This document shows, piece by piece, positions 7,686 to 41,700 of a DNA stretch of 64,000 nucleotides. Origin of the DNA: Siphonodentalium dalli (Eukaryota > Mollusca > Scaphopoda > Gadilida > Siphonodentaliidae); NCBI GenBank assembly GCA_032622095.1, contig CP136065.1, forward strand, positions 248,929,474 through 248,993,473, given 5' to 3'. Numbering within the stretch: position 1 is the stretch's first letter; each line of letters opens with the position of its first letter. Made by a program: the position numbers and the translations under genes. The notes under the pieces are model-generated. The model was not told the origin of the DNA. It worked only from the letters and a program-made list of their open reading frames with translations, and did no database searches.

Positions 7686-7689
7686 ACGA

Positions 7690-8632: not shown

Positions 8633-8716
8633 ATGAATGAGGGAAATTTATCACGATGTTTATCTGATTTGCGCAATGCAGAAAGCGATAATGAGAAATT
8701 TGCTTCGTTGTTAATG
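8633..8716 (+). CDS. NCDN: Neurochondrin exon 1 (start codon)
   Basis: The exon encodes 28 residues, beginning MNEGNLSRCLSDLRNAESDN and ending FASLLM, then donor GTAAAA at 8717. The peptide matches the first conserved helix pair of neurochondrins (family pattern L..L..A.ND.E.FAALLL). The start is chosen because this ATG opens the conserved segment, stops lie close upstream, and the family's N-terminal extension before this point is variable. The exon ends in phase 0, matching exon 2, which begins with VTKI. Confidence 0.92.
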
Positions 8717-14700: not shown

Positions 14701-17700
14701 TCTGACTATGGATTTAGCTTAATTAGCTTTATCACTCTATAAGACATATCTGGTTGAAATTGATTGCCATATCCATGTTCCTATTGTGCATATGTGAGCA
14801 AGGTGCCCAGTAAGTCTGATTCCACTTGTGACCTCAATAGTAAGGTGTGAATTGTTGATTTTTTTGCACTCATGAAAAGGTTGGTGTAAGAATCTATTAA
14901 AATAGCTAATCAGTATCGCCAAGGTATGGGTTAAACCAGGGTTTCCGCTAGGGATAAATAACTGAGGCCGTATTTGGGGGGGGGACACTCAACGCGACGG
15001 GGCGACCATGGTTCGCTCCGTCGGGTGAAAATTTTGATGTTTGTCAGTGAAAAGAAGCAATTTCCTTGCACCTAAGACATGAAATAGGAACGTTGAATCT
15101 ACGTGGATAAAGTAAATTGAAACAGCGCATGTTTTTTGACACCAAATTATTTAGTTATTAATTTAGTATCTCCATCATCGCTGTTCAAAGGTCAAGGGTA
15201 TCAGAATGTGAACCGGATTTCGTACCGGCTGTTTTTCGTACCGATATTCTGAAGCATACCGGTAGTTGGTAACCAAGAGGTCATTCCCCTCGCTACGCTG
15301 GTTTGGGCGCAATTCCGTTTTGCAAGTAACTCCATGCATTTGAAAATGCATCTAATCTTCTCTCTGTTCGCGCCTCGTGTGGTGTTTGATGCGACTTGCA
15401 TTTGTTGCATCACATTTCCCGAAGTAGCTGAAGCGGCAAAGTCAACGCTCGCCTGAACACAATCTACGTGAATTCACATGCCTTTCAAACTGTCTACGTG
15501 GATGGTCAGTCTGCCGAACCCCTGTGTCCACCCAGGACAGACCGATTTGTTGCATTCTGGGCAGAGAACGGCGCCACCGGGAACATAGGGAGCAAATCCA
15601 CCCCCCTTTCTCTATACTGTAATTTGCCCACGGGAAGATCTCCATCCATTTTCGACGTGACGAGACAGACGAACCACCTCGAGAAGATGTCGAATCAATA
15701 CCTTGGCTATCATCTACCATAACGGAAACTATGTTCGCTCCAGTCGACGTTGAAGCAATACATTGTCGATCATATGTTGCATCAGAAACTACGTTCGTAG
15801 AGTTTGGCGCATCGTCGGTCGGCAAGTTTCCAGGTCGCCCAGTAGTATAAAACGCAGTTATTTTTGCTGATCCCTGGGCATCGTTCGGTCGCAGTTTTCT
15901 TTTGTATAATCCATCTTTGTGACTCATAATTAATTTTGTTTAAACGGACCGCTCGCAAATTTTGAAAGTATTCAACTAAAACTTCAATGTAACATGAGAC
16001 GTGACGTCGCGGGAACCGAGTGCGTGGGCAGTTTTCTTTGTCGGCAACGGTCCCTTTGATGTGACGATTGGTTTGTCTTTGACTTATGCCGACAAAGCAT
16101 TACGATGGGTGACCCATGCAACTGATTACGTATAGGCATAAAGTGCATATGTTAATCGCCCAGTGCCGGTGGCCACATTCCCGGGAAAAGAGGTTTGAGC
16201 TCGCCGGGCCATTATTGGGGAGGGGAATGAGGCCGCTTGACGGCCGGCCTGCCGTAGTAGCGGAAACCCTGGTTAAACATCTGCCGATCGTGATCGGCCT
16301 CTCGTTGGTTTAGAGTGTTTCCCCTTATGTCATGGGTGAGTATTTTGGCCAGTGGTCACATGATCTTGAAGAACTTCGATCAAGGTTTTTACACAAATCG
16401 AGGTTTAGTACATAGAGTTTGGGTTTTCCCTGACCTGATAGGGGATAACTTGAACAAATATCAGCTGATATTGTTGATAATCGATTTACGAGAGTTGCTC
16501 AATGTTGATCTAATTCAAAACCTGGCAGGTCCGTCAAGTTTGGGTGGACATGTGGGACTGTAACTCCCCTGACTACAGCCCCCCCCTGATGCACCCCTGG
16601 TACTGACATAGCATTCAGGGCGCTTATCTCTACCATGACAGGAGGTTATTGTTCTGTGGGATGATATAATCTTCTTTCTTCTCAAAATGAAAAATGACCA
16701 GAGATAATCAAGGCTCTGTAATGCCTTGTGAGATGGGAGGAAACAGTATGCTGCAGTTTTATACTGGGAGACTTTATATCATTTGTAACACTTCTAACAC
16801 CTGTCTACTAGTGATGCGGACCGGATCGGACCACCTTGGGTGGTCCGGTCCACTGCCAAGGCGGTCCAGTCCGGTCCTGTCCAGGCCATTCCGGTCCGGT
16901 ACACATGCCTGGACCGGTCCAAAACGGTCCGGTCCATCTATAATAGGCTATATGTTAATTAATTCTCTGTTTTCTAAAAGTTTTTACTCTGTATAGTACA
17001 AACTATAAGGTTACTGGAGTTCAGTGCATTGCAATCAGTCCATACATGTCAAAACTTACATTGTTTGCCGATTGTATGCATCATTGTCTGTCTCTGGTGG
17101 GATATACTGGGAGCGATGCACGATAATAGTATTTCTAGTAATGCGAACATGCACTAATTAAATGTATTGGGCATATATATAGCTAGCTAGGGCCAGAATG
17201 TGTTATAACCAATCTAACATGGCACTCAACTGATCGTATGCATGATTCGTATCATACTTATTTTCATTAAATTGAAATTTAAACGAAATAGCTATACTGA
17301 TGACAATTATACAAATGTGTACTAATATGACTACTACATTAATATTGGAGATTGTGATGGCTGATTGTATAGTCCTGACAATTACAGTTATATACCTAGG
17401 CTAAGTACAGCTACTATAATACTATTGGATTAATGTGACTGTCTTGTGTATGTACTATGTAATGTGGTTTGCATGTTTCTTCGATAATTATAACTGTGAA
17501 AAACAATAGAATACTCGATTCGATATCCATTCAAATTGATTAGTTGATGCCATGTTACACTGTTTATGACAAATAGTTCCATACTCATTCAGTTGCATGT
17601 TTGTCGCATTGGTAGGGTGCTACATAGTGTTGGACATTAAATCAGGCGGCCGCCCACACTGGCACTTTCATTATGAGGAAAGTGACATGTACAATGTACA

Positions 17701-20700
17701 TCTATACATTGTTTTCGTGACATCAAATGTTTAATAGATATTAACCACTTCAATGCGTCAATACATCGTTGCTAATTGATATGACGGCAAATACGCAATA
17801 ATATTCGCGATAGTTTATTATAACTGAAGTAAAATAGTGGACCGGACCGGTGAGTACCGGACCGGCGGCAAAAAGCGGTCCGGTCCAGTAACACCCGGAC
17901 CGGACCGCGGTCCACCCCTGGACCGCGGACCGGACCGGTCCAAAGCGGTCCGGTCCGCATCACTACTGTCTACAAGCATTCTCACTGGAATCTTAGAAAG
18001 TATGTAAGTTAACGCTCTGTAACGCTTTGTAACATGTTGCTACACTGAGATGGGAGGTAACAATATGCTGTGGCTTTTTACTGGGGACTTTATATCATTT
18101 GTAACACCTGTCTATGAGTGGTCTCTCTGGAATCTTAGAAATCATGAAACACTCCGTAATGCTTTGTAACATGTCGCTACACTGATATGGGAGAAAACAA
18201 TATGCTGTGGTTTTCTACTGGGGACTTTATATCATTTGTAACATTTGTAACACCCGTCTACGAGTATAAAAGTATAAATATTTCATTCTATGAATGCAAG
18301 ATGTTACATTTTGTTACACTTTTAACATTTGTGACGGTATTACAAAATGCCTAGTGGTGGACAAGTGTACCGGTTTCATACATGTACATGTATCTTTAGA
18401 AGCCTCAATTGTTTTCCTTTTCAGGTGACAAAGATAATCAAGTCGAATGAATGTGACTCATCAACCAGGCGCTCCATTTATGATGCGGTCGGTTTCAAGT
18501 TTCTAGCTCGACTTCTCAAAACAAGTAAATAATACTTAATCCTGTTAGATTGTTAATTTATCTGATTATATATGCTCTCCATTTATGATGCAGTCGGTTT
18601 CATGTTTCTAGCTCAACTTCTCAAAACAAGTAAATAATACTTAATCCTGTTAGATTGTTAATTTATCTGTTTATATATGCTCTCCATTTATGATGCGGTC
18701 GGTTTCAAGTTTCTAGCTCGACTTCTCAAAACAAGTAAATAATACTTAGTCCTGTTAGATTGTTAATTTATCTGTTTATATATGCCAGGGTTTCCGCCAG
18801 GCCGGCTGCGGGTCTGTCACACGGACCCATTCCCCCCGTCGGTCGTTGCATGAAATCCCGTTCATACACAAATAAATGACGTTATTTAAAACTTATTCAG
18901 TCTTGCCTGTGTCGACAGGCTATACATCTACACTTATTTTCATTAATATTGACATATGAAATCGACACAGTCCATCTCCCGAAAAAAACAATAAGAATAG
19001 CATGCAAATACATTGGAGCAAAACATCAAAGGCGGCAAACATCAATGCCATCAGAATAAGCATGCGTCAGCTGCAGACTTATTTCGTCAGCATATCGGTG
19101 CCATAAATGGGTCTGTTTTTGACGTCGCGTTCAGTTCAGCGCAAACTAACCATGAGCCATAAAAAGGGTGAATATAAAAGAAAAATATGACCAGAAGATG
19201 CAAAGGGTTCGGCGTAGATTAGCAATTTTTTTAGACATGAGACTGAAAGCCAGACAGGTATAGATGGTCAAGTTACACATAGTGACAGTTCCATGTTAAG
19301 ATGAATGTGCAGAACCTTGCCTTGGTACTTTAACAAATACGTCGTCTGACAGAACGCAATCAAGTCGACAATGGGGTGATGAATATCAGTGGGCCTTTTA
19401 CAACGCCGCTAAGTCCAGGTGGATATGCCAACTGTGTACGAATTGGCACGGACAAATACCACGGGCACCGGATACCGACCCATGGTGGGTTGATAAAGGC
19501 ATCAGACTAAGCGATCATCCAAGGCGCCAATTTGAAAAACACCAAAATTCATCAGTCCACCGAAATTGTCTAACTACATGTACTAGCATTGACAGAGTAG
19601 CCGCCACTACAGCCGGGTCCGTGATTCAACAACTACAATATGCCTCAGATACCACTCGGGATGAGAACAGGGGAAAGATAGTGGGAATTTTCAAAATTAT
19701 GGAACTGGTTGTGAAACGAAACTGGGCTTATTCTACTTCCCTTCCTGACATTGTATCACTTGTGGAAGATCTCGGTGTGGATTTGAAACTACTGGGAACC
19801 ACTACATATCTTTCACACCAATCTAATGAAGAAATGATAAAATGTATGAGTGAGTACATAGAGGAAACAATGTGGGATGAATGTAAAAGTGCTAGTTTCT
19901 AGAATATCGTAAAGTATATAAATAGTGCATTCGAACAACGAAAGAACTTAGTGTCTAATGCCAACCTCAAGCAGTAACGATTTACCTTATAAACTTACGT
20001 CAGTCGTATAGCCTTGGCATACCACATTACAGTACGTAAATATTTGTTTTATTGTCTATGTGAAATGTGCATGTATATGTTTCATTGTGTCTTATGTTAA
20101 CCATCAATGTTGAAGTTGTGACAATAAAATCTTATCGTATGAAAATTCAAAATTGTCTAGTGGAAAACGAATATCTAAGTTTGCTTTAATTGTGTCTATG
20201 TTAATCATCATCATCATCATCATCATCATAATCATGGAACAAATCTTTCGACTTTTTGTTCCAGTACTAATGAAAATGTATTGGTAAAAAATGTCACAAT
20301 CATAATGGATTTAAATTATGTTGTTATGCTGGTAGAGTTCTGTCATTGACATCGTCATATAGATATCGCCTGTTGTGGAAATATGAATCTATTAACATTT
20401 TAAATTCCTTCAGAGATGGTGTTGCTACTATGTGGTTTGGTAACGCATTCCAGTCTTCTATTTATATATCCTCTGTGTGAAGAAGTATTTCCCATAGTCC
20501 TTTAACACTGTTCGCTTCTGTAACTTCCATTGGTGACCTCTAGTTTTATCGGACAAACTTTTCTGGAATAGTTCATGAGTATCAACGTTGTAGTGGTCAT
20601 TTAAAAACCTGTACACTTCTATTAAGTCTCCCCGGAAACGTCTATACTTCAGGGACATTATGTTTAGTTCGATCATGCGTTCTCTATAACTAAGTTGCTT

Positions 20701-23700
20701 CAGCTGCGGGTACCAGTTTCGTTGCTTTCCTTTGAACCCTTTCGAGAATTATACTCTGGTATTTATGTCGAGGATGCCATGCGGAATTGCCATACTCTAG
20801 CACAGGACGTACCATGCTCACATATAATTGTCTAAATGTGCCCAGATCTAAGTGGGAGAAGGTTCTGTAAATTATTCCAATGATTTTACTTGCTTTGTTG
20901 CAAATTTGATGTATGTGTTCGTCGAATTTGAGTTTGTTATCAATTATAACCCCTAGATCTCTCTCCGAGTGACTAATAAAATGGGAGTTTCTTCATGTGT
21001 GCTTGTATCAATCATGTGGCAGTTTATTTGTAGATTGTTATGCCCAAAATGGATCACGTGAATTTTATCGTTGTTGAATCGGAGTTGCCATTTCTCTGAC
21101 CACTTACACACAGCATTTATTTCTTTTTGGATGTCATCGTGTTGCGGGTTTACTGTAAGTTTCGTGTCATCGGCAAACATTTCACAGAAACAATTTACAC
21201 TATCGGGCAAGTCATTTATGTAGAGTAGAAACAATATTGGGCCAAGAACGCTTCCTTGTGGTACACCACTAGTGACCATTTTCCATTCAGAATACTGATT
21301 TCCTATCCGGACGCGTTGTTGTCTTATTAAAACCCACCCTTTTACAGACAATTGCACAGAATATTGTTTGGGCTTTATATATCTTACGGTGCTATCATTT
21401 TTTATTGCAGAAAAAGTTCCAGAAGACTGCTCACCATACATATATAGGTCAATTGCATTGAGTCTGCTTGTGTGCTTTAGTACAGATCATGATTTGGTGA
21501 GCCATATATATATATAGGTCAATTGTATGGTGAGCCATACATATTTAGGTCAATTGTATGGTGAGCCATACATGTATAGGTCAATTGTATTGAGTCTAAC
21601 AATGTATTCCTTATTCCATTGTTACAACTACATGTATGAGCAAGGTGTGGGGAGATCTTGAGTAAAATCTGAGGTGAGTCGAAATATCAGGGAGGGGGTG
21701 ATGATAATCTAGGTATTTTTTGTTACTGCCTCAGTTTACTTATTATACCCCCCCCCCCCCACACTGATTATACCCCTATTATGTCTCCCATAGCAGAAGA
21801 GGCCATATACAGGTATGGGTTCCAACATTGTCCGCTTGTAACAAATCTTTTCATTGGGAAATTGTAAGACTGACCATAATGGACTAGGTTACAATTTGTG
21901 TATCGTTCAATGATAATTCTCAGAAGCATATTTTGAATATTGATGCTGATCACCCTTAAATGATTAGACCAATTCAAAAACTCTAGGAAACATATTTTCA
22001 CCCCTTATATCAAATTGGCTTATGGAGACATAGGCTCAGATTGAAGTTCCCAAATGGTGAATATTGTGATGTAATTACAACTACTTTCTCTTTCGGTTAA
22101 ATACGTGCATTTGATTGGTCAATTGCCCTTAGATACGCTTGGTAGCGACGATTTCTATCAGCCGAGGGAAATGTCATTTCCCACATCACAACGCGCAGTG
22201 ATACTTTAAGAAATTGGGCAACATGCACGAACGGTCGCCCAACATCATGATGCCATTTCCTAAAAGCGTCCATAGTTACCATACCGTGAAAATTAAATTA
22301 ACGAATTAGACAGATCAGTGAAACTATGAAATGTGATAATTTAGTTGGGGATAAAGGAATGTTTTACATAACTATTCCACCATTAGTATTAGCATTTATC
22401 CAGCTTTGTGTCAATACTAATATGACATGGTAGTGGTCATGAGAGCATAGAATGCACCATTGTAGCGATTGTTTACTTTTCGAGTTTGTCACCGGAGAAC
22501 GCAAATTCGGTGGGGAAATTTGGGAACACTGCTTCAGAATTGCTATCGAATCAGATTGTCTTTATGACAATAGATGTTCTAGAATCGTTTTAAATAAGTG
22601 AAATTTACACCAGCAAGTACAGTTTAATAGTTTACGGTGTGGTGTCTTGCTTTTGTATAGGTTGGAAAGTTGGAAACAGAGATCGAATTGTGTGTGTTCA
22701 TCTCGAACTTCCGGTCAGTCGCCCAATTTATTCTCGACCCGATTTCCCATTTTCCATTAAAAGAGCAACTGAAGTCCAGACACAAATATCACCTGGGTAG
22801 TTTTACTATTTTAGTGTTTTTAATATAGTTTCTTAAAAAAAACTAGTTTAATCACCAACTAATATGCAGATTGTCGTAATTATAAGCAATCAATGTCGTT
22901 TTTAATGCATCTGTCGGCGTATAGAAGTGTCTGATGCTGAATTACTTACTGTATAATTTCGCAAAGAGAAATTATACTAAGTATGTAGTTTGACATCAGA
23001 CACTTCTATACGCTGACAGATGCATCGAAAACGACGTTTATTGCATATGTACACCCATTGGGAATCTTGATTATGCAATGTGTCATCTGCCAATTTGGGG
23101 ATATCGAGAAACTAAACTAAAAAAATAAATAAAATCTGTGTGAAGAGTAGAAATTTTATAATAAAGAAACTTTCAAGAGAAGATGAGGCCTAAGCAGATT
23201 GGGGTCCCCAGCGGGTGTATTTAGTGATGCTAACCCGCTATGAGGGATAGTGTCACTAAATTCACCCTCTGGGGACCTCATTCCTGAAATGACACACACT
23301 AAACTCAGGATTGAATAGCTCTTTTAAAATATCATTGTTTCATCTCTGTTTCTATTCAACATTAGGTAATATGGAAGGTGGAAGTGACAACAACCTCTGA
23401 AGATAATGCATGAAAATGTACAAATCACACCTCTATCACTCACTCACACTCAAATTATAAACTCCCAGTTAATTTTTAGCTCAACTTTAATTTGTAAACA
23501 TTGAGCTATTGCCATGGGTTGGTGTCCATCGTCCATGCACAATATCAAAGTGAAATTTAGATTTCAACATGTATATACTGGAATGGTCTGTTATTAATTT
23601 TGAGGGGTTTTCAGAAAAAAATAAGCAGGGGCGCCGGAAGCATCCAAGGGCAGGGGGGGGCAGAGCCTACAAAAAGGGCACTTTTCCGCAAAAAAGGGCA

Positions 23701-26700
23701 TTTTCTCCGCAAACTCCAGCTGCAAACTCGGGAAAATAACCATAAATTCAATGTGGCAAAAATCCCTATTTTAATGGTATTTGTCGGTTTTCATGGCCGT
23801 TTTGTGATAAAATTGGCAAAAAATTAATATTCCTTGTGAAATTGGTGGTATTTGGACCAAAAAAGTCACATTTTGATATAAAAACACAAGATTAAACGCA
23901 CAAAAAGCATTTTCTGTCTCCAGAAAAAGGGCAAGTCCTGCCCCCCGCTCACCCCCAGGGTGGTCAGCTGCCCCCTCTGCCCCCCCCCCTCTTCCGGCGC
24001 CCCTGAAAATAAGCAGGTGCAACAGAAAATAACAAGTGCAGAAAATACAAGTGCAGAAGTAGTCCTATTTATTGGAGGGAAATGTTCAGATAATAAGTTC
24101 AACAAATTACCTTTGGTCGGTTGTTGAACATAGTATCTGAACATTTCCTAAAGGAACTAATCATCAATGAGTATTTAGTATAGAAATGTGTCCACGCCTT
24201 TTATATTTAGTATAGAAATGTGTCCATGCCTTTTATATTTAGTATAGAAATGTGTCCACGCCTTTAGTATATAAATGTGTCCACGCCTTTTATATTTAGT
24301 ATAGAAATGTGTCCACGCCTTTTATATTTAGTATAGAAATGTGTCCACGCCTTTTATATTTAGTATAGAAATGTGTCCATGCCTTTTATATTTAGTATAG
24401 AAATGTGTCCACGCCTTTTATATTTAGTATAGAAATGTGTCCACGCCTTTTATATTTAGTATAGAAATGTGTCCACTCCTTTTATTATTAGTATAGAAAT
24501 GTGTCCACGCCTTTTATATTTAGTATAGAAATGTGTCCATGCCTTTTATGTCTGCATTTTGTTTGTGATAAGATTTATTTTCAAAAATTTCCAGGCCGGC
24601 CACCAAGATCTGTTGCAGCATATCCCACTATTGAATGAAATCATATCCAGTGAAAAGTGAGTAATATGAAAGTAAGATTCAGAAATGTCACTTAGAACTA
24701 GTACAAATAGTGAATTAACAAATATAAACAATTATGTTGATATTATATTTATGATAAGTATATCCTGAATGCACACAACAAAAACATTAACTGCTAAGAA
24801 TTATATGCAAAAAGTGAAATACCTTCATTTTAACAGACATGATTTTATGGAGCTTTTAACAAGATTGTTCCAAACATCTGGGCATGTCAGTTTGAATGTC
24901 CATTTTCCATGATATCACTGCACCTTGTTGTGCAATACTTTTTTGGGTAAAATTCTATTTGAAACCTCATGGAGGTTTGCACTCCAAATACACCTAATAA
25001 TATTTGCTTTTGAATATTTCCCGGCATCGAAATAGGTCAATAAATACCTGAACTATCTTCCTACGAGCATTATAATTCCCAGAAAGATGCATTGAAGTGA
25101 TAAAAAATACAACTTCAAAATATTGTATGGGCCCCGTACAAATATGGTGCCATTTGTATTCATCAGAGTTCTGGAATCAGAAATGGAACGTCGGAAAGGT
25201 TATATTTGTATTATCTTAACATGAAACTATTAAAAAAATACTTCGCTCACCGCTTTCTCTTCATTTTAATCATCAAAATTATGTTGTGCCTTTGACGACA
25301 ACATTAGATATTCTTCCCATAGTCTACAATTGCAATGTTTATGCAACCGCTGAATAAAAAAAAGGAACCGGCTCAAATGAAATGATCTCAACATTATCGA
25401 AAAATCTAAGAAACAAAACACGTATTTTCAGTGCTATATCGACAAAAAATTGTTCGAAAAAAAATCTTCCACGTATATATGCTATGCTTTGTTATACTTC
25501 TTTCCAAATTAGGATAAATAAGTAAAAATCTCTCATCACTGAAATGTTCTCTAAAAAAGCCTCGTCGCGAACATTTTTATTAATATTTTCTATTAGAAAT
25601 ATTTTATTTACACAAAGAAAAATGAATTATTTTTTATTTCTGAAGTATGTTTTCCAGATATTGAGACAAAAATAAAAATGATTAGCCACCCCTCCCTCAT
25701 CCCAAAGTTGAAAACACAGATATTTTATTTTAATGGCCTTGTGTATACATAATTTTGGAGTTGGAATGAGCCATGTCTATTTAAATAAGAAGCATCACCA
25801 AGGTTGCACATGATGTAACACTTACTGTATCACTCTCTTGGCAGCACTGAAGAACAAGAGATGCACTGTCTCAAGGATGATGCATATGAACTGTTAACTA
25901 ACATCACTCTAACATCGTCGGGTCTCAGGTCATTATCAGAGCAGAAGACACCAACCGTTCTTACAGAAATATATACTAATCAGATACATGGTAAGCTGTT
26001 AACTAACATCACTCTAACACCGTCGGGTCTCAGGTCATTATCAGAGCAGAAGACACCAACCGTTCTTACAGAAATATATACTAATCAGATACATGGTAAG
26101 CTGTTAACTAATATCACACTAACATCGTTGGGTCTCAGGTCATTATCAGAGCAGAAGACGCCAACCGTTCTTACAGAAATATATACTAATCAGATACATG
26201 GTAAGCTGTTAACTAATATCACTCTAACACCGTCGGGTCTCAGGTCATTATCAGAACAGAAGACGCCAACCGTTCTTACAGAAATATATACTAATCAGAT
26301 ACATGGTAAGCTGTTAACTAATATCACACTAACATCGTTGGGTCTCAGGTCATTATCAGAGCAGAAGACGCCAACCGTTCTTACAGAAATATATACTAAT
26401 CAGATACATGGTAAGCTGTTAACTAACATCACTCTAACACCGTCGGGTCTCAGGTCATTATCAGAGCAGAAGACACCAACCGTTCTTACAGAAATATATA
26501 CTAATCAGATACATGGTAAGCTGTTAACTAATATCACTCTAACACCGTCGGGTCTCAGGTCATTATCAGAGCAGAAGACGCCAACCGTTCTTACAGAAAT
26601 ATATACTAATCAGATACATGGTAAGCTGTTAACTAACATCACTCTAACACCGTCGGGTCTCAGGTCATTATCAGAGCAGAAGACGCCAACCGTTCTTACA

Positions 26701-29700
26701 GAAATATATACTAATCAGATACATGGTAAGCTGTTAACTAATATCACTCTAACACCGTCGGGTCTCAGGTCATTATCAGAGCAGAAGACGCCAACCGTTC
26801 TTACAGAAATATATACTAATCAGATACATGGTAAGCTGTTAACTAATATCACACTAACATCGTTGGGTCTCAGGTCATTATCAGAACAGAAGACGCCAAC
26901 CGTTCTTACAGAAATATATACTTATCAGTAAGCTGTTAACTAATATCACACTAACATCGTTGGGTCTCAGGTCATTATCAGAACAGAAGACACCAACCGT
27001 TCTTACAGAAATATATACTAATCAGATACATGGTAAGTTGTTAACTAACATCACTCTAACACCGTCGGGTCTCAGGTCATTATCAGAGCAGAAGACACCA
27101 ACCGTTCTTACAGAAATATATACTAATCAGATACATGGTAAGCTGTTAACTAATATCACACTAACATCGTTGGGTCTCAGGTCATTATCAGAACAGAAGA
27201 CGCCAACCGTTCTTACAGAAATATATACTTATCAGTAAGCTGTTAACTAATATCACACTAACATCGTTGGGTCTCAGGTCATTATCAGAACAGAAGACAC
27301 CAACCGTTCTTACAGAAATATATACTAATCAGATACATGGTAAGTTGTTAACTAACATCACTCTAACACCGTCGGGTCTCAGGTCATTATCAGAGCAGAA
27401 GACGCCAACCGTTCTTACAGAAATATATACTAATCAGATACATGGTAAGCTGTTAACTAATATCACACTAACATCGTTGGGTCTCAGGTCATTATCAGAA
27501 CAGAAGACACCAACCGTTCTTACAGAAATATATACTTATCAGTAAGCTGTTAACTAATATCACACTAACATCGTTGGGTCTCAGGTCATTATCAGAACAG
27601 AAGACACCAACCGTTCTTACAGAAATATATACTAATCAGATACATGGTAAGCTGTTAACTAATATCACACTAACACCGTCGGGTCTCAGGTCATTATCAG
27701 AGCAGAAGACACCAACCGTTCTTACAGAAATATATACTAATCAGATACATGGTAAGCTGTTAACTAACATCACTCTAACACCGTCGGGTCTCAGGTCATT
27801 ATCAGAGCAGAAGACGCCAACCGTTCTTACAGAAATATATACTAATCAGATACATGGTAAGCTGTTAACTAACATCACTCTAACACCGTCGGGTCTCAGG
27901 TCATTATCAGAGCAGAAGACACCAACCGTTCTTACAGAAATATATACTAATCAGATACATGGTAAGCTGTTAACTAACATCACTCTAACACCGTCGGGTC
28001 TCAGGTCATTAATAGAGCAGAAGACGCCAACCGTTCTTACAGAAATATATACTAATCAGATACATGGTAAGCTGTTAACTAACATCACTCTAACACCGTC
28101 GGGTCTCAGGTCATTATCAGAGCAGAAGACGCCAACCGTTCTTACAGAAATATATACTAATCAGATACATGGTAAGCTGTTAACTAACATCACTCTAACA
28201 CCGTCGGGTCTCAGGTCATTATCAGAGCAGAAGACACCAACCGTTCTTACAGAAATATATACTAATCAGATACATGGTAAGCTGTTAACTAACATCACTC
28301 TAACACCGTCGGGTCTCAGGTCATTATCAGAGCAGAAGACGCCAACCGTTCTTACATAAATATATACTAATCAGATACATGGTAAGCTGTTAACTAACAT
28401 CACTCTAACACCGTCGGGTCTCAGGTCATTATCAGAACAGAAGACGCCAACCGTTCTTACAGAAATATATACTTATCAGTAAGCTGTTAACTAATATCAC
28501 ACTAACATCGTTGGGTCTCAGGTCATTATCAGAACAGAAGACACCAACCGTTCTTACAGAAATATATACTAATCAGATACATGGTAAGTTGTTAACTAAC
28601 ATCACTCTAACACCGTCGGGTCTCAGGTCATTATCAGAGCAGAAGACGCCAACCGTTCTTACAGAAATATATACTAATCAGATACATGGTAAGCTGTTAA
28701 CTAATATCACACTAACATCGTTGGGTCTCAGGTCATTATCAGAACAGAAGACACCAACCGTTCTTACAGAAATATATACTTATCAGTAAGCTGTTAACTA
28801 ATATCACACTAACATCGTTGGGTCTCAGGTCATTATCAGAACAGAAGACACCAACCGTTCTTACAGAAATATATACTAATCAGATACATGGTAAGCTGTT
28901 AACTAATATCACACTAACACCGTCGGGTCTCAGGTCATTATCAGAGCAGAAGACACCAACCGTTCTTACAGAAATATATACTAATCAGATACATGGTAAG
29001 CTGTTAACTAACATCACTCTAACACCGTCGGGTCTCAGGTCATTATCAGAGCAGAAGACGCCAACCGTTCTTACAGAAATATATACTAATCAGATACATG
29101 GTAAGCTGTTAACTAACATCACTCTAACACCGTCGGGTCTCAGGTCATTATCAGAGCAGAAGACACCAACCGTTCTTACAGAAATATATACTAATCAGAT
29201 ACATGGTAAGCTGTTAACTAACATCACTCTAACACCGTCGGGTCTCAGGTCATTAATAGAGCAGAAGACGCCAACCGTTCTTACAGAAATATATACTAAT
29301 CAGATACATGGTAAGCTGTTAACTAACATCACTCTAACACCGTCGGGTCTCAGGTCATTATCAGAGCAGAAGACGCCAACCGTTCTTACAGAAATATATA
29401 CTAATCAGATACATGGTAAGCTGTTAACTAACATCACTCTAACACCGTCGGGTCTCAGGTCATTATCAGAGCAGAAGACACCAACCGTTCTTACAGAAAT
29501 ATATACTAATCAGATACATGGTAAGCTGTTAACTAACATCACTCTAACACCGTCGGGTCTCAGGTCATTATCAGAGCAGAAGACGCCAACCGTTCTTACA
29601 TAAATATATACTAATCAGATACATGGTAAGCTGTTAACTAACATCACTCTAACACCGTCGGGTCTCAGGTCATTATCAGAGCAGAAGACGCCAACCGTTC

Positions 29701-32700
29701 TTACAGAAATATATACTAATCAGATACATGGTAAGCTGTTAACTAACATCACTCTAACACCGTCGGGTCTCAGATCATTATCAGAGCAGAAGACACCAAC
29801 CGTTCTTACAGAAATATATACTAATCAGATACATGGTAAGCTGTTAACTAACATCACTCTAACACCGTCGGGTCTCAGGTCATTATCAGAGCAGAAGACG
29901 CCAACCGTTCTTACAGAAATATATACTAATCAGATACATGGTAAGCTGTTAACTAACATCACTCTAACACCGTCGGGTCTCAGATCATTATCAGAGCAGA
30001 AGACACCAACCGTTCTTACAGAAATATATACTAATCAGATACATGGTAAGCTGTTAACTAACATCACTCTAACACCGTCGGGTCTCAGGTCATTATCAGA
30101 GCAGAAGACGCCAACCGTTCTTACAGAAATATATACTAATCAGATACATGGTAAGCTGTTAACTAACATCACTCTAACACCGTCGGGTCTCAGATCATTA
30201 TCAGAGCAGAAGACACCAACCGTTCTTACAGAAATATATACTAATCAGATACATGGTAAGCTGTTAACTAATATCACACTAACATCGTTGGGTCTCAGGT
30301 CATTATCAGAACAGAAGACGCCAACCGTTCTTACAGAAATATATACTTATCAGTAAGCTGTTAACTAATATCACACTAACAGAAGACACCAACTGCAAAT
30401 TTCACAATTTTGCATAACCTATTTTTCGTTTGCCTGGTTTGTGCCTTGGTAACCCAATGTAACTAATGTATGGGTTTTAGTGAGATCTGGGGATATTGTG
30501 AGCAGCATTTGCTTACTTTAGGCTTGAAATGTTTTTCGCCAAAAGTTTGACCAAAAGAAATTTTCCTTGACCTTTTTCGGAAAAAAATCTAGCTATTGAC
30601 CAATTCAGCCGCCGGTAGTGTGAAAGCTGGTTGTCCTACATAGTTATGCACACATATCTCCTTAACCCTTTCAGTGCCAGGTCCGATTTTTGTATCAACC
30701 CATATACCCTGTGCCAATGCATTCTCTTATATATGTGAGTCGACCATAGGTCGCCTCGCATATATAAGAGAATGCATTGGCCTAACAATTTTTCATCATT
30801 TGTTATTATTTTTTACAATTTTTTACAATTTTAATAATTTTTTCTTATATTCTTTAACAGACTTATTTTGTAGGTTTAGTGCCAGGGAATCTTACGTTTT
30901 TCATGGGCATCAAAATTATTACTATGAATACTTGGTGATAGTTATAACATGCCCCTAAGGTTTTATCCAGTTTGTTTTTTAAATTCGCTATAGCATGCTT
31001 AAGCATACCCAAAACAAAATTCAACCCAAACAAATCTAAAAAAAACATTTTAATTTATTTTTTATTTTTTTATTTTTTTAGGGCCGATTTTACAGACTGT
31101 AAATTAGGGCTGATGAGATCGGCCCCCTGGCACTGAAAGTGTTAAGACCCTGCAAATATGCAGATTTGTAATCTGATATCGATCGGGGAGCTGATGTCGA
31201 CATCAAACTGAATCATAAATCGAATCCCAAATCGTATCCGCTAACCGCCAGTGCTGAATGTAGGTCTTCGAAGTCAGTCCCAATTTTATACCTATACGGT
31301 ATCAGGGAAATAGCAGGCTAGCATCACTAAATTCACCCTCTGGGGACCTCATTCTGGTTAGGCCTCATCTTCTCTGGAAATTTCTTTATTATCAAATTTC
31401 AAAAGAAACTTCATCACATAGATTCTATTTCATTTTTAGTTTAGTTTCTCTATATCCCCAAATTGGCAGACGACACATTGCATAATCGAGGTTCCCAATG
31501 GGAGTACATCACAATATTCACTATTTGTGAACTTCAATCTGAGTCTATGTCTCCCATAGCATATGAAGCCGTAGTGAATGGGGTCCCCAGAGGGTGAATT
31601 TACTAATGCTAGCCCACTATGCGGGATAGAATCACTAAATTCACCTTCTGGGGCCCTCATTCTGCAAATTACAGGCACACTATATCCAGACTTGAGCCTG
31701 TCATATGATATGTCTATTACCTCTAAATTCATTTTCTCAAAATTTTCAGATTGGCAGAAAGCCAAAAATCTATTACTAAGGATTACTTCATTGTGTGATC
31801 GAGACATATGGGGAAACAATGAACAGGGTATTCATTTGTTACTTACCTATCTGGCAGAAAACTTCAAGAAGAATTCATTACCAGACAAGTTGGATATGTG
31901 CTTTGAGATTTCTCAGATCATATCATCATTAAGGATGGACAGAACGGAGAGTGATATTCCACCGTGGTTACATTTATTAGTGAGTGAGGTATGTGGTCTC
32001 CTACAGAACAGACTCGCTGCGGAACAGAGAGCGACGTTACTCCAGTTAGCGTCTGTGATAATTGACTCTACGGGCATCAACTGCTTCTTGCCTCCAAATG
32101 TCTCTGATAAGAAGATGTTACTGCTGATAATCCATCTTGTTTGTATCGACACACGGTTGATTCTAGAGAATACACCATTAGCAGAAGTGAGCATTATAGA
32201 TTTTAACCTCATATCAAATACAAAATACTGGACTTGATCTGTCAAATAAATAGCAGATAGAACGACACAAGTGTGTGAACTGGTTAACGTTATTGTAAAA
32301 TGAGATCCAGAGTTTCGTGTTTTACCTCGCGGCACGACAAATGAGTGCAATAACGTTAACATGTTCACAAAACTGTATTGTTCTATGTTTATTGCACACT
32401 CTGAAGATTGTATTGTACTGCTTTAACCCTTTACCCAACAGAAGGGCCCTGTGCCAATGCATTCTCTTATATATGCGAGTCGACCATAGGTCGCCTCGCA
32501 TATATAAGAGTATGCATTGGCTTAACACATTAAAAATTATAAAATTGTTAAAGAATGTAAGAAAAAATGGTAAAAAGTGTTTAAAAAAGATTTTTTTTAG
32601 GCCAATGCATTCTCTTATATATGCGAGGCGACCTATGGTCGACTCGCATATATAAGAGAATGCATTGGCACAGGGCATAACTGTAACTATCACAATGTGG

Positions 32701-35700
32701 TCAAGGAGCCGGTTCCAATGATATCCATATTTGTATGGTTCTATTGAGACAGACCGAAGATATTTTAGGCTGTTGAAGCTTTATTTGGCCGGTTTTGGCC
32801 GGTTTGTTGGGTAAAGGGTTAAGTAATTGACCCAGTAACTGGGCTAATATGCGTTTATAACTGCGGAAAAACCATAACTGCACCTTAATTAACTGTTCCA
32901 TTACTTGGTGGCACAGCGATTAAATGCTGTAAATAAACCCCTGTTATATTCCTTGACTGCCGATACACTGTAGCTAACTGTTGATTGTCAGCAAATTTTA
33001 TTTTTATGACATGTTTAATTTTGTTGGGGCCGCAATTATACTTGAAGTTAGCGTTTCATACCAGTTGATGATTACATGGATTTTAACAACACAATTCTCT
33101 GGTTGTCTTAGGGTTTCTTCTAATGTCTAATTGAAATTCAGTTTAACTGAGGGGCCACCATGGTTTGATGAGTTATTTACTTAGGGCAGTACAGTAGCTT
33201 GTAATATACTAAAATTTAGGTTGCTATGGTGTTATTTAATTAAACAAATGTGTGATTTATGTAGACTATACTTCATAAGTTAGTCAGGATATTTTCTGTT
33301 AAAGTTGAAGTCGCCACTGACGATGTCAACGTAATCTGTTTGTATTCTTCAAGGACAAGACATTATTTATTTAACTTTTTGAAATCTTTGGTATTTTTGC
33401 CAAAATAAAACCAACGGGTGTGTTATAGATACATAGACGACATGTGTGTTAAAGGTAATAAATCCGATTTGATGGTCCCCATATCATCAGATTCCAACAA
33501 AAACATTTTTTAAATGCGGCTTCAGTTATCAGAATCGATTAATTGCCCAAAAATAATGCTGACCGCAGTCAACTCATTATTCGCCCAAAACCTGTTACTT
33601 ATCAACATTTTGGTCAACTATATTTTGCCGGTTTGTCAAATATCTGACACAAAAAAGCCACTTGATTTTAGAGTTATCCATCTTCATCCTCAATTTGGTC
33701 AGAGAAATTCCTCTCGTCGACTGTTTACTGGGCCACTTAAAATTAAAATAATAGATTTCAAACATCGATATCTGATCACTCTGAGCTTTGATGGATGGGT
33801 TCCTTGACTCGAATCAAATATTTTTTACCCCCGAAGCCAAGGAAATAGTAATTTGCGAGCATTAATTTGGATTGAGTACCTTTAATGGGTTTGTTTATAT
33901 GGCACGAGTGTTAGCGTGGACAGATCGAGTTCTATCATTCCTCGATGGCACAAGTGTCGTTATTTGTTTATTACACATCACCTGTCCTAGAATCTGTGCT
34001 TTAAAAAATACAGGCTTACAAGGTTTATTTAGGCACATACAGGGCTTGTTTTTTCATGTGTGATAATGCTTTTATTTTATAGTTTAGGTTTCATGGTTGA
34101 TTATTACAGATACCCGGGAAGATGAATCTGTTAGTGATATACTACAGTCTGTTAGAGAACACTATACAATACATGATTCAAGAGACACCACTCCAGCTCG
34201 AGAAGAAACAGATTGTTCAACTGCATTCAGCGATGTGTGGTGCATTTAATGCTGTTATTTTCTTCTTATCTGAATGTTCAGCCGATGAATCTGTGCAGGT
34301 TAGTCTCGCATCCATTAGCGCAGGGTTTCCACTTGGGGTTGGGGGAGTGGGACCCCCAGGTCTGATATATTTTGTCAAATTTACCAAATAGCAAATAGAC
34401 GACGTCCCAGGGCTCATTTCCACAAATCTAAACGGATTTCAAAGATATTTGGTATATGAGTTCACCTGACCATTACCTAGAACGAGTTCGCAAGCCAGTT
34501 CTGGCCAGATATTTTTACCGGAGTTATTGGACTTTGTTTATTATTTTTGTTGAATTTACCAAATAGCTAATAGACGACGTCCCAGGGCTCATTTCCACAA
34601 ATCTCAACGGATTTTAAAGATATTTGGTATATGAGTTCACCTGACCATTACCTAGAATGAGTTCGCAACCCAGGTCTGGCCAGATATTTTTACAGGAGTT
34701 ATTGGACTTTGTTTATTATTTTTGTCGAATTTACCAAATAGCAAATAGACGATGTCCCAGGGCTCATTTCCACAAATCTCAATGGATTTCAAAGATATTT
34801 GGTATATGAGTTCCCATGACCAGTACCAAAAATGAGTTCGCAAGCCAGGCTTTTTGACAAAATCCCACCTCTTGTTTAGCGCATACTGAGAATGTAAACA
34901 TTATTGAGAATGCACTTCACCAACTGCACAATTCGGCGAGGGATACCGCCGTCTGCGACTGCTTGTTTTTTTTAATTTTGATGTAAACTTGTTTTTCCTG
35001 GTGGCTTATCCGTCAAATTATGTTTTGAAGACCCATAAATCAGTCAATTTTGATCAAATTGGACAGTCTAAATCCCCTTGTAATATATAATATAAGATAC
35101 TGGACAATCTAAATCACCTTGTATTATTTAATATTGGATACTGGACAATCTAAATCACCTTGTATTATTTAATATAGGATACTGGACAATCTAAATCACC
35201 TTGTATTATTTAATATAGGATACTGGACAATCTAAATCACCTTGTATTATTTAATATATGATACTGCTTCAATATCTAGATCTGTCCATGACCATTTATG
35301 TTAGGAAGAATAAATTATTAAAAATTGAATTCACCCTCCCACCCTAGATTTCTGAAAACGTTTGATGAAAATCTAGCAATTTATTTATATTGGCCTAATG
35401 GAAGTTTGGTTGTATTTCAGCTTCAATCATCAGCTGTCATTGCTTCTGTTCGAGTTCTTGGGTCCTGGTTAGCAGAAGAAACAACAGCACTGAAAGAAGA
35501 AATCTATAACGTTCTACCCTATGTTATGAAAGTGTGGTGAGTGAACAATAGACTGAAGAAATCTATAACATTATACCCTATGTTATGAAAGTGTGGTGAG
35601 TGAACATTGGACTATAACATCATACCCTCAGTCAGTAAAGTGTGGTGAGTGAACAATAGACTGAACATTTTACCATATGCTATGAAAGTGTGGTGAGTGA

Positions 35701-38700
35701 ACAATAGACTATAACATTATACCGTATGTTATGAAAGTGTGGTGAGTGAACAATAGACTATAACATCATACCCTATGTTATGAAAGTGTGGTTAGTGAAC
35801 AATAGACTATAACATCATACCCTATGTTATGAAAGTGTGGTTAGTGAACAATGGACTATAACATACCACATGTTATGAAAGTGTGGTGAGTGAACAATGG
35901 ACTATAACATCATACCCTATGTTATGAAAGTGTGGTTAGTGAACAATAGACTATAACATCATACCCTCAGTCAGTAAAGTGTGGTGAGTGAACAATAGAC
36001 TGAACATTTTACCATATGTTATGAAAGTGTGGTGAGTGAACAATAGACTATAACATTATACCCTATGTTATGAAAGTTGTTAGTGAACAATGGACTATAA
36101 CATCATACCCTATGTTATGAAAGTGTGGTGAGTGAACAATAGACTATAACATCATACCCTATGTTATGAAAGTGTGGTGAGTGAACAATAGACTATAACA
36201 TCATACCCTATGTTATGAAAGTGTGGTGAGTGAACAATGGACTATAACATCATACCCTATGTTATGAAAGTGTGGTGAGTGAACAATAGACTATAACATC
36301 ATACCCTATGTTATGAAAGTGTGGTGAGTGAACAATAGACTGAAGAAATCTATAACATCATACCCTATGTTATGTTATGAAAGTGTGGTGAGTGAACAAT
36401 AGACTATAATATCATACCCTATGTTATGAAAGTGGTGAGTGAACAATGGACTATAACATCATACCCTATGTTATGAAAGTGTGGTGAGTGAACAATAGAC
36501 TGAAGAAATCTATAACGTTCTACCCAATGTTATGAAAGTGTGGTGAGTGAACAATAGACTGAAGAAATATATAACATCACACCCTATGTTATGAAAGTGT
36601 GGTGAGTGAACAATAGACTGAAGAAATCTATAACGTTCTACCCAATGTTATGAAAGTGTGGTGAGTGAACAATAGACTATAACATCACACCCTATGTTAT
36701 GAAAGTGTGGTGAGTGAACAATAGACTATAACATCACACCCTATGTTATGAAAGTGTGGTGAGTGAACAATAGACTGAAGAAATCTATAACATCATACCC
36801 TATGTTATGAAAGTGTGGCGAGTGAACAATAGACTGAAGAAATCTATAAAATCATACCCTATGTTATGAAAGTGTGGTGAGTGAACAATAGACTATAACA
36901 TCATACCCTATGTTATGAAAGTGTGGTGAGTGAACAATAGACTGAAGAAATCTATAACATCATACCCTATGTTATGAAAGTGTGGTGAGTGAACAATAGA
37001 CTGAAGAAATATATAACATCACACCCTATGTTATGAAAGTGTGGTGAGTGAACAATAGACTGAAGAAATCTATAACATCATACCCTATGTTATGAAAGTG
37101 TGGCGAGTGAACAATAGACTATAACATCACACCCTATGTTATGAAAGTGTGGTGAGTGAACAATAGACTGAAGAAATCTATAACATCATACCCTATGTTA
37201 TGAAAGTGTGGCGAGTGAACAATAGACTATAACATCACACCCTATGTTATGAAAGTGTGGTGAGTGAACAATAGACTATAACATCACACCCTATGTTATG
37301 AAAGTGTGGTGAGTGAACAATAGACTGAAGAAATCTATAACATCATACCCTATGTTATGAAAGTGTGGTGAGTGAACAATAGACTGAAGAAATATATAAC
37401 ATCACACCCTATGTTATGAAAGTGTGGTGAGTGAACAATAGACTGAAGAAATCTATAACGTTCTACCCAATGTTATGAAAGTGTGGTGAGTGAACAATAG
37501 ACTATAACATCACACCCTATGTTATGAAAGTGTGGTGAGTGAACAATAGACTATAACATCACACCCTATGTTATGAAAGTGTGGTGAGTGAACAATAGAC
37601 TGAAGAAATCTATAACATCATACCCTATGTTATGAAAGTGTGGTGAGTGAACAATAGACTGAAGAAATATATAACATCACACCCTATGTTATGAAAGTGT
37701 GGTGAGTGAACAATAGACTGAAGAAATCTATAACATCATACCCAATGTTATGAAAGTGTGGTGAGTGAACAATGGACTATAGCATCATACCCAATGTTTT
37801 GAAAGTGTGGTGAGTGAACAATAGACTGAAGAAATCTATAATATCATACCCTATATTATGAAAGTGTGGTGAGTGAACAATAGACTATAACATCACACCC
37901 TATGTTATGAAAGTGTGGCGAGTGAACAATAGACTATAACATCATACCCTATGTTATGAAAGTGTGGTGAGTGAACAATAGACTATAACATTATACCCTA
38001 TGTTATGAAAGTGTGGTGAGTGAACAATAGACTTAAGAAATCTATAACATCATACCCTATGTTATGAAAGTGTGGTGAGTGAACAATGGACTATAACATC
38101 ATACCCTATGTTATGAAAGTGTGGTGAGTGAACAATAGACTGAAGAAATCTATAACATCATACCCTATGTTATGAAAGTGTGGTGAGTGAACAATAGACT
38201 GAAGAAATATATAACATCACACCCTATGTTATGAAAGTGTGGTGAGTGAACAATAGACTGAAGAAATCTATAACATCATACCCTATGTTATGAAAGTGTG
38301 GCGAGTGAACAATAGACTATAACATCACACCCTATGTTATGAAAGTGTGGTGAGTGAACAATAGACTGAAGAAATCTATAACATCATACCCTATGTTATG
38401 AAAGTGTGGCGAGTGAACAATAGACTATAACATCACACCCTATGTTATGAAAGTGTGGTGAGTGAACAATAGACTATAACATCACACCCTATGTTATGAA
38501 AGTGTGGTGAGTGAACAATAGACTGAAGAAATCTATAACATCATACCCTATGTTATGAAAGTGTGGTGAGTGAACAATAGACTGAAGAAATATATAACAT
38601 CACACCCTATGTTATGAAAGTGTGGTGAGTGAACAATAGACTGAAGAAATCTATAACGTTCTACCCAATGTTATGAAAGTGTGGTGAGTGAACAATAGAC

Positions 38701-41700
38701 TATAACATCACACCCTATGTTATGAAAGTGTGGTGAGTGAACAATAGACTATAACATCACACCCTATGTTATGAAAGTGTGGTGAGTGAACAATAGACTG
38801 AAGAAATCTATAACATCATACCCTATGTTATGAAAGTGTGGTGAGTGAACAATAGACTGAAGAAATATATAACATCACACCCTATGTTATGAAAGTGTGG
38901 TGAGTGAACAATAGACTGAAGAAATCTATAACATCATACCCAATGTTATGAAAGTGTGGTGAGTGAACAATGGACTATAGCATCATACCCAATGTTTTGA
39001 AAGTGTGGTGAGTGAACAATAGACTGAAGAAATCTATAATATCATACCCTATATTATGAAAGTGTGGTGAGTGAACAATAGACTATAACATCACACCCTA
39101 TGTTATGAAAGTGTGGCGAGTGAACAATAGACTATAACATCATACCCTATGTTATGAAAGTGTGGTGAGTGAACAATAGACTGAAGAAATCTATAACATT
39201 ATACCCTATGTTATGAAAGTGTGGTGAGTGAACAATAGACTATAACATCATACCCTATGTTATGAAAGTGTGGTGAGTGAACAATAGACTATAACATCAT
39301 ACCCTATGTTATGAAAGTGTGGTGAGTGAACAATAGACTATAACATTATACCCTATGTTATGAAAGTGTGGTGAGTGAACAATAGACTTAAGAAATCTAT
39401 AACATCATACCCTATGTTATGAAAGTGTGGTGAGTGAACAATGGACTATAACATCATACCCTATGTTATGAAAGTGTGGTGAGTGAACAATGGACTATAA
39501 CATCATACCCTATGTTATGAAAGTGTGGTGAGTGAACAATAAACTGTAACATTATACCATGTGTTATGAAAGTGTGGTGAGTGAACAATAGACTGAACAT
39601 TATACCCTATGTTATGAAAGTGTGGTGAGTGAACAATGGACTATAACATCATACCCTATGTTATGAAAGTCTGGTGAGTGAACAATAGACTGAAGAAATC
39701 TATAACATCATACCCTATGTTATGAAAGTGTGGTGATTGAACAATGGACTATAACATCATGCCCTATGTTATGAAAGTGTGGTGAGTGAACAATAGACTA
39801 TAACATTATACCCTATGTTATGAAAGTGTGGTGAGTGAACAATAGACTGAAGAAATCTATAACATTATACCCAGGCCTGGCATTCTGAGGCGAGCGATAA
39901 AATCGCTCGCCTACCGCCCGCCTGAAAATAATCCAGGCGGACGAAATAACGCCCTCCCAAACGGCAAAACATCGCTCTCCAGGACCCGGGTGTAAGTAAT
40001 GATCTATGTACTAACAGAGTCGGCAACGAAGTGTTAAACGATGTCGGTATGGGACCTTTGATCTATAAGCCGCATTCCGACTGTCCCTGGCGAAATGTAC
40101 AAGCGATATTGATTACGTTGTAGCAATATTTCCACCGGAAGCACGTGCCTCTGTGAAATAGACACACCGTTCAGTGTTATGTCACTTTGAAGTATTGCGT
40201 CATGCCTCCCACGCAACTGGACAGTGCTATATAATGTCAGGCATCATTGAGGCATTGTTATGAGGCAATGTAAAAAGAATAGTTGTCTGAATTGTTACTA
40301 ATTACATTACTAGCTAAAGTAACAACATATCTTGTTATTTAATATTAAAATATTTTGTGTAATGAAAACAACAAACTCAGCAATTATTGTAATAGTTTAA
40401 TACTGACATGTACTTTATTTTTATCAATACTGTACATGTGGAGTGGAATATTTACTATGTCTGATTTTGGCAAACATTTTCGCCCTCATGTGCTCGGCAC
40501 AAATAATAGCCCTCCTAGACCTTTTCAGGAGGGCGATTTTTAGCTCTCCTAGATTTCTGAGAATGCCAGGCCTGTATACCCAATGTTATGAAAGTGTGGT
40601 GAGTGAACAATAGACTATAACATTATACCCTATGTTATGTTATGAAAGTGTGGTGAGTGAACAATGGACTATAACATCATACCCTATGTTATGAAAGTGT
40701 AGTGAGTGAACAATAGACTGAAGAAATATATGACATTATACCCTATGTTATGAAAGTGTGGTGAGTGAACAATAGACTGAACAATTGTGCTTGTGCTGTA
40801 TAAAAATAGAGTATGGGAAGGTTAACCCTTCCATGACTGGAGCTTCCTGTAGGGAGCCCCATACATGTGGCAGCTTGTTTAGCTGAGTGTCGTCTGCTCA
40901 CGTTTGAGATGCTCCATATGGGTAGCTTAATCCTTCCATGACTGGAGCTTCCTGAAATTTTGCGAAAACCCTGTGCCAATGCATTCTCTTATATATGCAA
41001 GTCTCCCATAAGGAGCCTGGCATATAGAATAGAATACATTGGCCTAACAATATTTACCTTGACCTTGTAAGCCAGTGAATAATAAGGTATATAACTACTC
41101 ATCAAAGAGTATTTAGTATTGAGCATGTTAAAGACATATGTGACCCGCCATATCAAATCCAGTCGTAAGTCGGGATTTTTTTACCCTGTGCCAATGCATT
41201 CTCTTATATATGCGAGTCGACCATAGGTCGCCTTGCATATATAAGAGAATGCATTGGCCTAACAATTTTTTATCATTTTTTAAAAATAAATGTTTCTTAC
41301 AATTTTTAGGACATAAAATAAAAAACATCCATTACCCTGCAGGGAGCCCCACACATATATAGAAGCATATAGAAGAGTGTCGTCTGCTCATGTTTGTCTG
41401 GGGCTCTGTATGGGTGAAATTTTAAATAAAATTGTTCAAGAATACAAGAAAAAATTATTAAAATTGTAAAAAATTGTTAGGCCAATGCATTCTCTTATAT
41501 ATGCGAGGCGACCTATGGTCGACTCGCATATATAAGAGAATGCATTGGCACAGGGTAAAAAAATCGCGACTTACGACTGGATTTGATATGGCGGGTCACA
41601 TATCATATGCTTTCATTATATGCTTGCTTATAAAATATCGGAAAATGCCGAAATGTAGATCGTCTTATATATCTCTTTGAAGCTACAGTGAAATACGATT

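Follow-up and report, generated by a model that had tools for sequence, protein, structure and literature searches.

The window (the whole stretch of Siphonodentalium dalli DNA analysed, 64,000 nucleotides) carries a neurochondrin gene of 14 exons and 724 codons with a reading frame open throughout; ∼20 C-terminal codons were not located. At four of the 14 exons (2, 3, 5 and 8), the exon/intron junction is copied into a tandem array. The preliminary description of this DNA, whose exon numbering agrees with that of the independent gene model for exons 2, 5 and 8, had listed arrays at those three exons only. Its count was understated, and the fourth array, at exon 3, strengthens the clustering of arrays at donors. 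The features, all on the + strand, are as follows.

8633-8716, +, neurochondrin exon 1, with the ATG start
18425-18524, +, exon 2, array at donor
18472-18785, +, exon-2 donor array (TRF: 105 bp × 3.0); its first copy contains the 3′-terminal 53 nt of exon 2
21411-21496, +, exon 3, array at donor
21434-21597, +, exon-3 donor array (TRF: 21495-21590, 31 bp × 3)
24595-24656, +, exon 4, donor without array
25845-25990, +, exon 5, array at donor
25891-30391, +, exon-5 donor array (TRF: 25891-30353, 105 bp × 42.9)
31750-32186, +, exon 6, without array
34110-34298, +, exon 7, without array across the donor
35421-35536, +, exon 8, array at donor
35499-39871, +, exon-8 donor array, main part (TRF: 35563-39872, 49/59 bp, 81.0 copies at period 49)
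39872-40574, +, element with terminal inverted repeats inside the exon-8 array, TATACC at both sides
40575-40787, +, continuation of the exon-8 array beyond the inserted element (TRF: 40575-40781), ending at the intron 3′ flank
43315-43675, +, exon 9, donor without clear array
44965-45088, +, exon 10, donor without clear array
53014-53097, +, exon 11, donor without clear array
55456-55623, +, exon 12, donor without clear array
57256-57354, +, exon 13, donor without clear array
60846-60963, +, exon 14, donor without clear array

In a tree whose sequences do not include an amphioxus protein, the neurochondrin protein groups within Mollusca (support 98/99), and its placement among deuterostomes has a p-AU of 1.6e-5; amphioxus, considered as a source because of its mirages, is rejected on the trees. 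Branchiostoma is not named among the 68 homologues, many of them unnamed, obtained by scoring the 7,994 candidates that share most words, a weak absence. The same homologue search gave one partial match, from a pearl oyster, of 50% identity covering 30% of the query, and a profile search for closer relatives returned none above 37% identity. Retroelement proteins did not point to a species, as the best 120 of 6,488 rows are mostly unnamed and those with names come from mixed taxa. Searches of the 64-kb window for tRNA genes and Rfam families gave no match (ARAGORN was run with the bacterial code).

For exons 2, 3, 5 and 8, the repeat unit starts at an offset of 47, 23, 46 and 78 nt within the exon, and its length is always in the minisatellite range (105, 31 shortened from 69, 105 and 49/59 bp, respectively); the introns measure 2886-7778 bp. 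That exons 2, 5 and 8 each head a donor-spanning array is borne out by TRF and by alignments of the exon end with the 5′ part of the intron (55/56, 99/100 and 49/57 identical positions, with 0/100 shuffles as good), each unit beginning inside its exon and crossing the GT donor. The copy numbers first given as 3, 43 and ∼80 were counted as 3, 43 and 86. Three donors occur in the exon-2 array. At exon 3, the exon segment 21434-21496 and GTGAGC are followed by shortened copies of 31 bp, the final one truncated within exon-derived sequence; the three donors lie at 21497, 21530 and 21561, and segment 21434-21465 is identical to the copy at 21566-21597 at 30/32 positions (0/100 shuffles as good). 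If the copy in the exon itself is counted, the exon-5 array has 43 full units (37 of 105 bp and six of 97 bp), followed by a partial last unit. Units of the exon-8 array are mostly 49 and 59 bp long, with 86 anchors over both parts, the exon's own copy included. The units of exons 2, 5 and 8, described earlier as mutually unrelated, are so in 11 of the 12 pair-and-strand comparisons; the exception, an antisense match between exons 2 and 5 (score 26, 0/200 shuffles as good), probably arose by chance, given 12 tests. Tandem duplication of whole exons is rejected, since the units start inside exons 2, 3, 5 and 8 and carry no acceptor.

The reading frame bears on which donors are used. Only the first donor keeps it open at exon 2 (one of three), at exon 3 (one of three) and at exon 8 (that at 35537, among 81 counted donors), and later ones lead to stops or frameshifts. 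The repeat-free gene model, aligned with nine homologues, has no repeat-sized insertion at the four array junctions. Because the later donors of exons 2, 3 and 8 break the frame and the protein aligns in this way, we infer regular splicing at the first donor. At exon 5, nine of the 43 donors, the normal one included, preserve an open frame as far as exon 14; eight later donors thus keep the frame, and use of the first is not forced by it there. Together with a unit of 105 bp, i.e. 35 codons, and an open frame at 25819-26931, this would fit an array that is partly coding, with alternative donors adding in-frame 35-residue repeats. Such an addition is nevertheless highly improbable: the frame is ended by the 97-bp unit form, which first occurs as the tenth unit, a GAA-to-TAA change is present in two of the 43 copies, and repeats of this kind are absent from the nine aligned homologues. 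Coding use of the entire array is ruled out by stops.

The abundance of donors, with 43 GTAAG sites in the exon-5 array and GT in 79/86 exon-8 copies (GC in the other 7/86), could instead suggest that extra donors are kept by selection, either as decoys or as splicing-regulatory repeats that bind U1 or tune intron removal. Selection for decoys had been put forward as a shared cause of the arrays. It is an improbable one, as the donor is not specially conserved: among 84 aligned exon-8 units, 8% have a change at its T and 5% at the base after it, against 0-1% for the following ten bases. Besides the loss of frame from later donors at exons 2, 3 and 8, recent block duplication alone accounts for the identity of the copies.

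Traces of turnover are visible in the arrays. In the exon-5 array, a block is repeated exactly 1244 bp further on, giving identical 295-amino-acid frames at 27472 and 28716, and a two-unit block occurs three times; shortened unit forms (97 versus 105, 49 versus 59 and 31 versus 69 bp) occur as well. The block duplications suggest length instability. Divergence in the exon-5 array shows no gradient away from the exon, and therefore the order of growth is not readable. Assemblies often misstate the copy numbers of long arrays, and this, with the exact repetition of the exon-5 block, could point to misassembly that created or multiplied the repeats. An artefact of this sort is very unlikely: several distinct variants and length forms, arranged in ordered patterns, distinguish the copies from one another; the exon-8 array contains an element that ends in inverted repeats; and most reads would be long enough for the arrays of exons 2 and 3 (314 and 164 bp).

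When exon and intron were compared for similarity against shuffles, none of the 13 acceptors had a clear array, and 10 of the 14 donors had none either. Among these 27 junction tests, three were borderline (donor of exon 9, 1/100 shuffles as good; donor of exon 11, 3/100; acceptor of exon 3, 2/100), and they are not convincing as arrays. Other arrays of the gene do not span an exon edge, e.g. 32 bp × 12 at 24172-24549, 175 bp × 2.7 at 34370-34849, 41 bp × 5 at 35060-35266, 30 bp × 34 at 58159-59180 and smaller ones. Two lie less than one unit from a junction without exon similarity, namely the 175-bp array near the exon-7 donor and a 36-bp array at 44888 near the exon-10 acceptor.

Clustering at donors in this gene is supported as non-random. 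Four donor-spanning arrays were observed against 0.18 expected (P 1.7e-5 for 12 arrays with a period of at least 10 and at least 2.95 copies, 40575-40781 being counted apart, in a gene not chosen blind). In 200,000 random placements of 12 arrays, with the 86-bp array at 50570 replacing 40575-40781 and an exon-3 founding unit of 69 bp, four donor matches never occurred (0/200,000), again for a gene noticed as striking. Both nulls assume that arrays start from seeds placed uniformly. When all 31 arrays with a period of at least 10 are included, the donor excess is weaker (P 3.2e-3), and the difference between donors and acceptors (4/14 versus 0/13) is not significant (Fisher p 0.098). The earlier argument from three arrays in one gene to a shared cause is partly supported, namely for the non-random clustering; four donor arrays in one gene suggest something beyond chance.

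One candidate is that 5′ splice sites are true duplication hotspots, the rate of tandem duplication being raised by transcription or splicing at donors (stalling, U1-bound nascent RNA or nicking), which would be compatible with the explanation favoured below. In its favour, 4/14 donors in a single gene is far above random placement, and the same anatomy is reported in several amphioxus genes, at two junctions in PGBD5. Against it, the gene was noticed because it is striking, 10/14 donors lack a clear array, the donor 9-mers of the array-bearing exons are not alike, and coding-strand GC skew of the four arrays is of mixed sign (−0.10, +0.24, −0.17 and +0.18). Since the sign differs, R-loop breaks at U1 sites, another shared cause proposed at the outset, gain no support. 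Such hotspots appear rather unlikely. A similar doubt applies to the wider proposal that tandem duplication would be favoured at 5′ splice sites of animals in general, as seen independently in lancelets and molluscs, because something about donors seeds duplications during transcription or replication, with arrays at these exon edges reaching dozens of copies harmlessly.

The explanation that we favour, with a probability of about 0.75, is that the arrays are mirage-type minisatellites, i.e. chance donor-spanning duplications tolerated in the intron and grown by ordinary minisatellite turnover. A chance tandem duplication across a 5′ splice site would give head-to-tail copies of the exon's 3′ terminus together with its donor and a short piece of intron. 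The first donor would stay in use, and since all further copies then fall within the intron, they would be tolerated and nearly neutral. Growth and homogenisation may then proceed by duplication of blocks of one to many units, via unequal exchange or replication slippage. The anatomy, copy numbers, block duplications and within-gene excess are observed, whereas the founding events, first-donor use and the neutrality of the copies are inferred. Template slippage, also suggested early on, is possible; microhomology at the founding junctions, as read by eye, is 3 bp at exon 8 and 0-2, 0 and 0 bp at the other three. This scarcity of founding microhomology counts against chance duplication followed by turnover. 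Chance and tolerance do not explain the excess at donors over random intron sites, which suggests junctions either unusually prone to repeats or unusually tolerant of them.

Mirage minisatellites were reportedly described in a paper on amphioxus Adh3. They are known from amphioxus Adh3, the globins BflGb6 and BflGb9 (PMC3087553), PGBD5 (PMC3902484) and troponin C. Their units, 10-160 bp long, lie across an exon-intron boundary next to an exon that is itself intact, and many contain splice signals (PMC3087553, PMC3902484). Regular splicing is apparently undisturbed by the Adh3 and globin mirages (PMC3087553), Adh3 and BflGb6 are reported to vary in length among alleles or somatic cells, and in PGBD5 two junctions are affected, the first repeat abutting the (predicted) 5′ splice site (PMC3902484). 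Likewise, the neurochondrin units span the exon-intron boundary, are of minisatellite length and carry donors in their copies; judged on these features, the arrays belong to the mirage kind already known from amphioxus, a precedent not mentioned in the preliminary description. They differ in that their host groups in Mollusca, outside the recorded cephalochordate distribution, that all four junctions are donors, whereas both sides are affected in the amphioxus globins, and that 43 and 86 copies, known from one haplotype's sequence, compare with the 2-7 given for globins and PGBD5 in the parts consulted. Among open-licence papers, nothing termed mirage was found outside lancelets, a weak negative. 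Mirages occurring so extensively outside lancelets would be more than a peculiarity of amphioxus; they would be a recurrent route to intron growth and to the accumulation of exon fragments with working donors. With four independent cases, this one gene would also let nature test how, among dozens of donors that are nearly identical, the spliceosome chooses the first.

Related systems differ in outcome. In human segmental duplications, minisatellite variation in internal tandem repeats that lie at exon-intron boundaries affects gene structure; in genes duplicated recently, these repeats are reported to give rise to novel introns and to alternative splicing (PMC2812944). In neurochondrin, by contrast, each intron relies on an acceptor of its own far downstream, and the repeats appear to be mere passengers of the intron. 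Duplications of a fourth exon in earthworm, which are reportedly absent from the transcript, are possibly related. Intron gain by tandem genomic duplication, as in the Rogers model (cited in PMC3087553) and in potato RdRp (PMC4974935), likewise involves tandem duplication of a segment bearing a splice site. Unlike in that model, the neurochondrin acceptors lie kilobases away and are dissimilar to the unit, and the introns are not built from the duplicated segment; intron gain was rejected at all four junctions (4/4), each unit being shuffle-like against the 3′-terminal 300 nt of the intron it lies in and 60 nt of the next exon. A published model holds that intron gain may start from mirage repeats (PMC3087553), and mirages outside lancelets, if true, would make it testable.

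The plus strand of the window carries most of one neurochondrin gene. Its model of 14 exons, traced through GT-AG junctions and the reading frame, comprises 724 codons and zero stops; a C-terminal end of ~20 residues, present in homologues, was not found in it. The product of exons 2-10 (540 residues) matches Pfam Neurochondrin (E 1.3e-104), and the model protein aligns over its length with nine homologues, the top identity in the tree alignment being 38%. In trees built without amphioxus sequences, it clusters with homologues from gastropods and bivalves (support 98/99), with limpet and abalone proteins as weakly supported neighbours (84/67), and a deuterostome placement is ruled out (p-AU 1.6e-5). 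The source is therefore most probably a mollusc, one with no near relative among the recovered proteins.

Tandem arrays span the donors (5′ splice sites) of four exons of this gene, and a further element interrupts one of them:
Exon-2 array: 105 bp, 3 copies, spans the donor
Exon-3 array: shortened 31-bp units with GTGAGC, between 21434-21465 and its recurrence at 21566-21597, spans the donor
Exon-5 array: 105 bp, 43 copies, spans the donor
Exon-8 array: 49/59 bp, 86 copies, spans the donor
39872-40574: element of ~700 bp with terminal inverted repeats CAGGCCTGGCATTCT and TATACC at both sides, interrupts the exon-8 array

The preliminary description placed arrays at exons 2, 5 and 8, with 3, 43 and roughly 80 copies; these are real, with 3, 43 and 86 copies, and exon 3 adds a fourth, the two occurrences of its segment being identical at 30 of 32 bases. 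In the exon-5 array, GTAAG closes every full unit, and six units have a 97-bp form in which an 8-base loss puts a stop codon in frame. Exact recurrence of a unit run at a distance of 1244 bp and the presence of one two-unit block three times indicate turnover by blocks; exon-proximal copies are no more similar to the exon than remote ones. The exon-8 array mixes chiefly 49- and 59-bp units, with a GC donor in 7 of 86 copies.

Exon edges were compared with adjoining intron sequence, each against 100 shuffles: 14 exon ends against the initial 600 bases of the next intron, and 13 exon starts against the final 600 bases of the intron before. Donors of exons 2, 3, 5 and 8 scored far above all 100. 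Three further edges are borderline and unconvincing across 27 tests, namely the exon-9 donor (1/100 shuffles equally good), the exon-3 acceptor (2/100) and the exon-11 donor (53031-53153; 34 of 48 positions alike, 3/100), where a decayed duplication is possible. The remaining 20 edges show chance-level similarity.

When arrays are modelled as seeds placed randomly along the collapsed gene, the 12 arrays that reach roughly three copies give four donor matches against 0.18 expected (P 1.7e-5; at least four in 0 of 200,000 simulated placements) and the wider set of all 31 arrays with period of at least 10 gives P 3.2e-3, values that cannot represent the genome because the gene was noticed for looking odd. 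Donors are not significantly favoured over acceptors (Fisher p 0.098). A shared genome-wide tendency to such arrays in molluscs would be a bold reading.

Among the proposed causes, R-loop-associated breaks are unlikely as a common mechanism, since coding-strand GC skew differs among the four arrays (-0.10, +0.24, -0.17 and +0.18). Selection for decoy donors finds no support, because in 84 aligned exon-8 units the donor T is altered in 8% and the next base in 5%, whereas the ten intron bases beyond are altered in only 0-1%. A low-homology process, slippage or template switching, would fit the short microhomology seen by eye at the founding junctions (3 bp for exon 8, 0-2 bp for the others).

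In exon 2 (1/3 donors), exon 3 (1/3) and exon 8 (1 of 81 counted), the frame stays open with the first donor alone; in exon 5, 9 of 43 preserve it, the first included. As, in addition, the nine aligned homologues have no repeat-sized insertion at the array junctions, the extra copies would best be read as intronic passengers. A donor-crossing duplication would leave the original exon and donor intact as copy one, which would explain the survival of the arrays. The passenger reading does not by itself account for the high frequency of donor arrays. Creation of the four introns by the duplications is rejected, since all four acceptors resemble array units only at shuffle level.

Other repeats and elements occur in the window:
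4-1060: 31-bp array, 34 copies, at the beginning of the window and 5′ of the gene
6978-7691, minus strand: reverse-transcriptase-like fragment, by eye
20953-21486, minus strand: reverse-transcriptase-like fragment, many RT protein matches (PF00078)
24172-24549: 32-bp array, 12 copies, its end 45 bp before exon 4
30700-30785, 32450-32680, 40970-41260, 41480-41560: palindromic motif around GGCCAATGCATTCTCTTATATATGCGAG, seen by eye in several introns
58159-59180: 30-bp array, 34 copies, inside intron 13, away from exon edges

The exon-4 start shows no similarity to the array before it, and long open frames, 369 and 411 codons in length, occur in the intron-13 array in both orientations. The 20953-21486 frame overlaps exon 3 in antisense, and the recurrent GGCCAATGCATTCTCTTATATATGCGAG motif is probably a dispersed inverted-repeat element. 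The exon-2 array terminates exactly at a CAGGGTTTCCGCC motif (region 18786-19902). Within this region, 500 bp past the array end, lies a 200-codon open frame; it resembles a minus-strand frame at 15442-15939 (score 189, against at most 49 in 100 shuffles), and the region may perhaps be a transposon remnant.

Boundary-spanning tandem repeats reportedly owe their name, mirages, to work on amphioxus Adh3. In amphioxus globin genes, according to PMC3087553, mirages occur at donor and acceptor sides, that of BflGb6 has 6 units in one haplotype and 3 in another, RT-PCR suggests undisturbed regular splicing, and mirages are put forward as a source from which new introns arise. Two are described in lancelet PGBD5: their units measure 60 and 108 bp, copy numbers vary with the assembly (2-7 and 3-6), and a predicted 5′ splice site adjoins the first repeat (PMC3902484). 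Human segmental-duplication genes have variable exon-intron boundary repeats able to form new introns (PMC2812944). The neurochondrin arrays are like amphioxus mirages in all three anatomical features tested (boundary span, minisatellite unit length and splice signals in copies), and unlike them in host, arrays per gene and copy number.
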